A stretch of 48,851 nucleotides of DNA from an uncultured Spartobacteria bacterium. GTDB lineage: Bacteria; Verrucomicrobiota; Verrucomicrobiia; Chthoniobacterales; UBA6821. The stretch lies in NCBI GenBank assembly GCA_903847935.1, contig CAINEX010000050.1, positions 1-48,851 of the forward strand, read 5' to 3'. The notes beneath the pieces are model-generated. The model was not told the origin of the DNA. It ran no database searches and saw only the letters and a list, made by a program, of their open reading frames with translations. Positions 40,104 to 41,246 of the stretch are shown here, one piece after another; the stretch's first letter is position 1; each line of letters begins with the position of its first letter. Both the position numbers and the translations under genes were made by a program.

Positions 40104-40640
40104 TTGCAATTCAGGGGGGCCGTCTGCAAGCATCGAGAGAACTCTCCTACCGTGCTTTTGAATTCCAATTCGCCTCAACTCATTATTATCAATGTCACCA
40201 GTCAGGAACTTCACCTTGTTTCAGGCATTGAACGACTCCTGGCAACATGGCCTGTTTCCACATCGAAGTTCGGCCTTGGAAGTCAAAAAGGGAGTTTCTG
40301 TACTCCTCTTGGAAAATTTCGTATCTCTGAGAAAATAGGTGATGGAGCCCCGAAGTGGATGATTTTCAAGAATCGCGTCGAAACTGGCACCCTGGCTCCC
40401 CTCGCGACAGAAGAGAATCCAAGTGATGAAGATCTGGTCCTGACGCGAATTCTCTGGTTGGAAGGAATTGACCCGGCGAATATCAATACGAAAGAACGCT
40501 ATATCTACATTCACGGGACCAATCAGGAAGCCCTAATCGGGCATCCGGCCAGCCACGGTTGCATCAGGCTTCGGAATAACGACATGCTGGATCTTTTTGA
40601 ACGAGTGGAGGTAGGTTGCGGGGTCGAGATCAAAGTATAG
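40104..40640 (+). CDS. L,D-transpeptidase, YkuD domain
   Basis: Peptidoglycan cross-linking enzyme family. The active site is HGTN (H137) and SHGCIRLRN with H151 and C153, complete and in order. No signal peptide or membrane helix is seen with either possible start: TTG at 40104 (178 aa) or GTG at 40152 (162 aa), and there is no in-frame ATG before the domain. Export is therefore unexplained. It is divergent from asd and followed by the tiny lipoprotein genes. Confidence 0.87.
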   Translation: MQFRGAVCKHRENSPTVLLNSNSPQLIIINVTSQELHLVSGIERLLATWPVSTSKFGLGSQKGSFCTPLGKFRISEKIGDGAPKWMIFKNRVETGTLAPLATEENPSDEDLVLTRILWLEGIDPANINTKERYIYIHGTNQEALIGHPASHGCIRLRNNDMLDLFERVEVGCGVEIKV

Positions 40641-40734
40641 TTACCCTGGGGAATCTTCGCGTTTCGTAAATTTTCAGTTTTTCCTTTGTCCAAGCAATGC
40701 GTACTATTAAAAGCTCAATCGGCAACCAGCACAG

Positions 40735-40742
40735 AAAGGAGG
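40735..40742 (+). promoter_or_regulatory. Full Shine-Dalgarno site of the first tiny lipoprotein
   Basis: AAAGGAGG, 11 bases before the ATG at 40754. It decides that start over an in-frame ATG at 40697. The same 8-mer at the same spacing precedes the second copy (41003-41010). Such strong sites are almost absent elsewhere in the window. Confidence 0.85.
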
Positions 40743-40753
40743 CGAAATACACC

Positions 40754-40867
40754 ATGACCATCACCAAGATCGCAGCAGTCATCGCACTTGCAGCAGCAAC
40801 TCTTACCCTCGGCGCTTGCGCACAGAAGCAGGCTCCAGCTCCCGCAACTGTCGGCAAGAGCAAGTAA
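40754..40867 (+). CDS. Tiny lipoprotein, copy 1 (37 aa)
   Basis: A 37-aa product: an export signal MTITKIAAVIALAAATLTLG with lipobox LGAC (C22), leaving a mature peptide of 16 residues, rich in Ala, Pro and Lys and ending VGKSK. It resembles the entericidin type of very small lipoproteins only in size and layout. The strong ribosome-binding site and the strong terminator 44 bases after the stop indicate high expression as a short transcript. It is a paralogue of the gene 155 bases downstream, sharing the signal peptide, the lipobox and the terminal SK. Function unknown. Confidence 0.75.
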   Translation: MTITKIAAVIALAAATLTLGACAQKQAPAPATVGKSK

Positions 40868-40910
40868 GGTAAAGAGGGATTGTCCGGTTTTCCGGGCCGT
40901 TCTAATTTTA

Positions 40911-40943
40911 AAAAGCCGGGCCGTTCTGCGGTCCGGCTTTTTT
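40911..40943 (+). terminator. Rho-independent terminator after lipoprotein copy 1
   Basis: AAAAGCCGGGCCG (40911-40923) pairs with CGGTCCGGCTTTT (40929-40941), 13 pairs with one G-T, around the loop TTCTG, ending in TTTTTT. A textbook intrinsic terminator, and the strongest in the window. Confidence 0.93.
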
Positions 40944-41002
40944 CTTTCCCTTTATATCGGGGAATTTCGCGTCTATTTTCTATTCAAACGCATCCAGCGT
41001 TA

Positions 41003-41010
41003 AAAGGAGG
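41003..41010 (+). promoter_or_regulatory. Full Shine-Dalgarno site of the second tiny lipoprotein
   Basis: AAAGGAGG, 11 bases before the ATG at 41022, continuing CGAAATA exactly as in copy 1. An in-frame TAA at 41001 excludes any longer start. Confidence 0.87.
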
Positions 41011-41021
41011 CGAAATAAATC

Positions 41022-41141
41022 ATGAACGTCACAAAGATCATCGCAGTTGTCACCCTAGCGGCGGCATCGCTCACTCTTGGAGCCTGCTGTCACAAACAGT
41101 GCTGCCAACCTGCTTCGGCCTGTCAGGTCAAGAGCAAGTAA
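41022..41141 (+). CDS. Tiny cysteine-rich lipoprotein, copy 2 (39 aa)
   Basis: A 39-aa product: signal MNVTKIIAVVTLAAASLTLG, lipobox LGAC (C22), and an 18-residue mature peptide containing five cysteines (C22, C23, C27, C28, C34), ending VKSK. C22 would be lipidated; the remaining four (in CHKQCC and later) could bind a metal or form disulfides. Copy 1 lacks them, so the two have diverged in the mature part while the signal and the leader are kept. A strong terminator follows 70 bases after the stop. Function unknown. Confidence 0.78.
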   Translation: MNVTKIIAVVTLAAASLTLGACCHKQCCQPASACQVKSK

Positions 41142-41211
41142 CTCTCTCCTGGAGAGGCTGGCCGTATTGATTTCCAAACCCACAAGTGAATATGGCCATG
41201 ATGGAACACAG

Positions 41212-41246
41212 GAGGCCGGATACCGTCAATGGATCCGGCCTCTTTT
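41212..41246 (+). terminator. Rho-independent terminator after lipoprotein copy 2
   Basis: GAGGCCGGAT (41212-41221) pairs perfectly with ATCCGGCCTC (41233-41242) around an 11-base loop and is followed by TTTT. It also sits 42 bases before the 3' end of the convergent mpg gene. Confidence 0.9.

Follow-up and report, generated by a model that had tools for sequence, protein, structure and literature searches.

Covalent attachment of the outer membrane to the cell wall by lipoproteins of the Lpp type is described, in the section of PMC10260701 that cites Witwinowski et al. (2022), as confined to a subclade of the Pseudomonadota. In the Verrucomicrobiota, the peptidoglycan fraction of Methylacidiphilum has been found to contain a larger lipoprotein with a C-terminal tyrosine and lysine, for which a role as a link between outer membrane and peptidoglycan was proposed in the same study (PMC10260701). 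Studies in Dickeya have demonstrated that the terminal lysine of an Lpp-like box is both necessary and sufficient for attachment, the other positions of the box being tolerant (PMC12274547). HP0135 of Helicobacter pylori, a very small lipoprotein of 28 residues when mature, has a conserved C-terminal lysine as well, but is absent from the murein sacculus; H. pylori is devoid of the Lpp-linking enzymes (PMC11768039).

The stretch of DNA analyzed here, referred to as the window, comprises the 48,851 nucleotides of contig C50 of a Chthoniobacterales (Verrucomicrobiota) draft genome (2.18 Mb, completeness 95%) and carries two tiny lipoprotein genes on the plus strand. Copy 1 (ORF1, 40754-40867), which is of a plain Pro/Ala type, encodes 37 amino acids (MTITKIAAVIALAAATLTLGACAQKQAPAPATVGKSK), and copy 2 (ORF2, 41022-41141), which is of the cysteine-rich type of the genus, encodes 39 amino acids (MNVTKIIAVVTLAAASLTLGACCHKQCCQPASACQVKSK). 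The lipobox cysteine is residue 22 in either copy, so that cleavage before C22 would release mature peptides of 16 residues (CAQKQAPAPATVGKSK) and 18 residues (CCHKQCCQPASACQVKSK), respectively; the cysteines of copy 2 are C22, C23, C27, C28, and C34. Frames, mature lengths, and the five cysteine positions agree with the original prediction, the lengths given cleavage at that site, and the LGAC and SK pattern that it had noticed in the pair turned out to be the signature of a whole family. Its singling out of copy 2 is not supported, however; the cysteine-rich type is a variant at the level of the genus, while the invariant features of the family are, among the members compared, the lipobox cysteine and the C-terminal lysine.

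With copy 2 as a single-sequence query, matches were obtained in 53 of 58 relatives (E ≤ 1). The search for small LGAC and SK frames in related genomes, which had been proposed as a check, was carried out with a profile of 11 members and revealed the family in 189 of 213 Chthoniobacterales genomes (104 of 112 when only those of good quality are counted); in the remainder of the class, matches of this profile were few and weak. For the plain copy, pooled dN/dS within the genus is about 0.10; for the cysteine-rich copy, whose group includes one sequence of the sister genus, it is about 0.18. These values indicate that both copies are under purifying selection. Because of this recurrence and the low dN/dS, the frames are not due to chance, and by these measures both are genuine genes for tiny conserved lipoproteins. 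Among the 99 distinct order-level members, that is, those recovered from the fetched loci, the mature part has 16 to 22 residues (median 18); whole proteins have 37 to 43 amino acids within the order. A lipobox of the L-x-x-G-A-C type is present in nearly all members, as judged by eye and by a regular expression. The mature part reads as rich in Pro, Ala, Ser, and Thr and varies in length and sequence.

Lysine is the last residue in all 99 distinct order-level members; 80 of them have SK as the terminal pair, often in the form of YSK; ends resembling Lpp boxes include GYSK, TYSK, GYRK, and GYKK. When a profile limited to the signal peptide was applied to the ORFs of all fetched loci, each of the 133 short ORFs found was lysine-ended, while the base rate among 1144 ORFs of at least 200 amino acids in these loci was 6.9%. 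Since full-length profiles, C-terminus included, had served to select these loci, the signal-peptide half alone was also run genome-wide in 14 genomes. The 19 matches obtained at E < 0.001 were all known family genes with a terminal lysine, and nothing was found between E 0.001 and E 0.1. A control of the C-termini of other lipoproteins in the fetched loci comprised just six proteins, too small a sample.

The family resembles Lpp in being composed of small lipoproteins with an invariant C-terminal lysine, often preceded by tyrosine, and in the presence of exported YkuD enzymes in the genome. It differs in the length of the mature part, which is 58 residues in Lpp versus 16 to 22 here, and in that a Pro/Ala/Ser/Thr-rich linker is predicted from the sequence instead of a helical heptad repeat; homology was not detected. 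The Pfam model LPP (PF04728) matched in none of 58 genomes of the order, the E. coli control being positive, and Pfam did not give a match for the family members. Thus, as far as profile comparison can tell, the family lies outside the LPP family, although its general plan is Lpp-like. WP_009060351 of Methylacidiphilum fumariolicum, the Verrucomicrobiota lipoprotein mentioned above for its C-terminal Y and K (PMC10260701), is set apart by its description; it has 139 amino acids including a 53-residue C-terminal domain, compared with 37 to 43 amino acids here. HP0135 shares small size and a conserved terminal lysine with the family, but it occurs in Helicobacter only, and its conserved C-terminal region is larger. 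The Lpp-like box of OutB of Dickeya dadantii is comparable in that a substitution-tolerant box with a terminal lysine suffices for covalent attachment, although OutB is an inner-membrane secretion protein and not a lipoprotein (PMC12274547). The LptM model NF047847 gave a best E value of 0.072 among the members, below its cut-off; with copy 1 it aligned over the signal peptide part only, at 11 bits versus a cut-off of 27.7.

Each of the two genes is equipped with its own expression signals. The 5' UTRs (40729-40753 for copy 1 and 40999-41021 for copy 2, plus strand) contain an extended Shine-Dalgarno sequence, AAAGGAGGCGAAATA, identical ahead of both frames and with 11 bases between GGAGG and ATG, as originally predicted. 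Of the 98 members for which upstream DNA is available, 90 have an extended Shine-Dalgarno, and the 5' UTR, consisting of GCAnCCAGC followed by AAAGGAGGCGAAAT, is the part common to both cassettes and to the relatives. Intrinsic terminators are located at 40910-40942 (a 15-pair hairpin, copy 1) and at 41210-41244 (copy 2), both on the plus strand; the latter was missing from the first terminator scan and was found by a scan tolerating one mismatch. The individual terminators, also claimed before, recur across the family; of the 99 distinct members, 90 have a terminator-like hairpin downstream, against 33 among 297 shuffled controls. High expression of the lipoprotein genes, which would be another likeness to Lpp, is suggested by the strong ribosome site together with the terminator. 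The GGGGAAT(C)TTCGCGT block, in turn, does exist at 40648-40662 and 40959-40972, but its interpretation as duplicated regulatory DNA is not upheld; among the 99 members it lies upstream of these two only, and it was rejected as a conserved element. A possible -35 element of copy 1, TTGTCC (40686-40691, plus strand), is situated about 68 nt before the ATG, where TTGTC-like motifs cluster in relatives (29 members at 66 to 70 nt); the assignment of this cluster as the -35 element of the family genes is tentative. A scan for the sigma-70 consensus did not give a match, and an RNA-family search of the window returned nothing but a tRNA. In part of the order, a conserved GCAACCAGC element adjoins the Shine-Dalgarno, alongside the clustered TTGTC motifs.

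Immediately upstream of copy 1, a YkuD-domain protein is encoded (40104-40640, plus strand; Pfam PF03734, E 6.5e-22), the true start of which is uncertain. An N-terminal signal peptide was seen neither in this frame nor in those of relatives. ElsL represents a class of cytosolic L,D-carboxypeptidases that act in wall recycling and occur in all Verrucomicrobia orders (PMC8649774), and the adjacent gene is best read as such a recycling enzyme, to judge from its domain and predicted location. It is a neighbor of the lipoprotein rather than part of it and probably not the linking enzyme, which gene neighborhood thus does not identify. The YkuD neighbor adjoins the lipoprotein gene in 41 of 59 fetched regions, and the order asd / YkuD / lipoprotein / 3-methyladenine glycosylase is conserved over much of the Chthoniobacterales. 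As functional evidence this synteny was rejected; asd and the glycosylase gene are retained too, which makes gene order alone unspecific. Five further YkuD loci are present in the genome, each with a signal peptide or lipobox as judged by eye, and nine genomes of the wider class have 7 to 18 YkuD matches each. Exported YkuD candidates of the present genome (G000) are located on contigs C66, C127, and C108. On C66 (8754-9857), two YkuD enzymes, one with a lipobox and one with a signal peptide, are encoded in tandem, and their catalytic domains resemble that of the ElsL-like protein. Two reduced sister genomes are of particular relevance. G028 (0.916 Mb) has kept the lipoprotein together with a single, intact YkuD enzyme of the lipoprotein type; G038 (0.9 Mb) has kept a lysine-ended lipoprotein, while the only YkuD gene detected (G038:C1:445281-445751) contains three stops.

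From these data we infer, with a probability of about 0.6, that the two genes encode minimal Braun-lipoprotein-like tethers. After lipidation of the prolipoprotein at C22 and its cleavage, a peptide of 16 to 18 residues would be delivered to the outer membrane. The side-chain amine of the terminal lysine would then be joined to the diaminopimelate of a peptidoglycan stem by an exported YkuD L,D-transpeptidase, whereby the outer membrane would be tied to the wall by the lipoprotein peptide. Copy 2, with two to four extra cysteines and the CCHK start, would probably act likewise, its additional feature being a bound metal or disulphides that connect tethers with one another or with a partner. 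A role in fastening the outer membrane to the wall is suggested by the lysine end in every member of the order. In favor of a tether are also the constancy of both ends while the middle varies in length and sequence, the likeness of the C-terminal ends to Lpp boxes, of which the terminal lysine suffices in Dickeya, the lack of LPP matches in the 58 genomes, the order-wide retention that extends to the reduced G028, the availability of candidate exported linkers in the five YkuD enzymes that carry a signal peptide or lipobox, the Methylacidiphilum lipoprotein of the peptidoglycan fraction, and the occurrence of counterparts in Akkermansiaceae with unrelated linkers, yet a terminal lysine. Counted against it are the reach of a 16-residue linker, which is at most about 6 nm when extended, and the finding that a terminal lysine is common (over 20%) in E. 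coli periplasmic proteins and lipoproteins (PMC12274547). The two points that hold the estimate at its present value are that HP0135 is not linked and that G038 keeps its lipoprotein despite the stops in YkuD, which may represent recent decay.

The same two points would be accommodated if the proteins were HP0135-like envelope microproteins, stabilizing the envelope non-covalently through the wall, Tol-Pal, or porins, with the lysine serving for charge or sorting. HP0135 is of similar architecture and is not murein-linked in spite of its C-terminal lysine (PMC11768039), and G038 retains its lipoprotein although the only YkuD gene detected there has stops. This explanation is nonetheless considered unlikely, since H. 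pylori does not have Lpp-linking transpeptidases, whereas the genomes considered here possess several YkuD enzymes, exported ones included, and since HP0135 conserves 8 of its 12 last residues, while in the present family essentially the last lysine alone is conserved.

Of the 16 genomes of the genus, 15, including the present one, have at least two copies; families f10 and f9 contain further tandem pairs, and most genera are single-copy. In the sister genus g2, a single clear copy is present, which is intermediate in type, for example CQCHKQAPAPAITGRSK. In six genomes (G001, G002, G004, G006, G011, and G012) the copies sit on different contigs and both are kept; the plain copy remains with asd and the YkuD gene in G004 and G006, and the cysteine-rich copy accompanies the 3-methyladenine glycosylase gene in G001 and G002. 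Hence, each cassette is best regarded as a unit of its own, in line with the duplicated pair of separate expression cassettes originally proposed. Across the genus, the cysteine-rich mature part contains 3 to 5 cysteines at shifting positions and usually starts with CCHK. That this start and the cysteines are kept genus-wide, together with a second copy in nearly every genome, could be taken to mean that copy 2 is functionally distinct, namely a lipid-anchored metal or thiol-redox peptide (CCHKQCC), with copy 1 as the structural tether. Number and spacing of the cysteines differ among species, however, unlike in a fixed metal site, terminal lysine and 5' UTR are retained as in copy 1, and the form in g2 (CQCHKQAPAP...RSK) is intermediate, so that a separate function of copy 2 appears rather improbable. 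An entericidin-like pair of toxin and antidote lipoproteins, which would share size class, tandem layout, and separate terminators, is hardly credible, as none of 11 members matched the entericidin models of Pfam and NCBIfam, most genera have one copy, and linkage of the copies is dispensable.

To follow the family beyond the order, a second profile was composed of five matches from outside the order and the order members. At the loose limit of E ≤ 0.05, it matched in 245 of the 384 class genomes, many of the weak matches surely being due to chance. Strong matches outside the order were mostly in family f15, which is taken to be the Akkermansiaceae. The genes of this family, present singly or as two or three in tandem, encode tiny lipoproteins the linkers of which are Gln-rich, Pro-rich, or of a CCTGE type, and the proteins are lysine-ended, with the exception of two very short lipobox ORFs in the arrays at loci L284 and L285. 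The counterpart in Akkermansia muciniphila is MKNIAILAIAGAACLVASCSQQQQQQQTTAPAPAPVVQAKGK (locus L275, minus strand, start at 1980). In G422, asd lies beside the lipoprotein gene and in G341 the glycosylase gene is nearby, which suggests common descent of the Akkermansiaceae and Chthoniobacterales genes, even though the mature sequences defy confident alignment.

Extending the tether interpretation accordingly is a tentative step, and we would put it at somewhat short of even odds. Much of the class Verrucomicrobiae, A. muciniphila included, might possess an independently arisen covalent tether made of lysine-ended lipoproteins with a linker of about 16 to 35 residues, to which a second, cysteine-rich tether, lockable by disulphides or metal, would have been added in the present genus. 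If true, a convergent, near-minimal tether across the Verrucomicrobiae would show how little sequence tethering needs, and it would explain an order-wide gene family for which neither Pfam nor NCBIfam has a model scoring above cut-off. Among the Akkermansiaceae loci (L284 to L298 and L245 to L249), arrays of two or three different lysine-ended tiny lipoproteins are seen, one type of which has the CCTGE motif and a longer linker.
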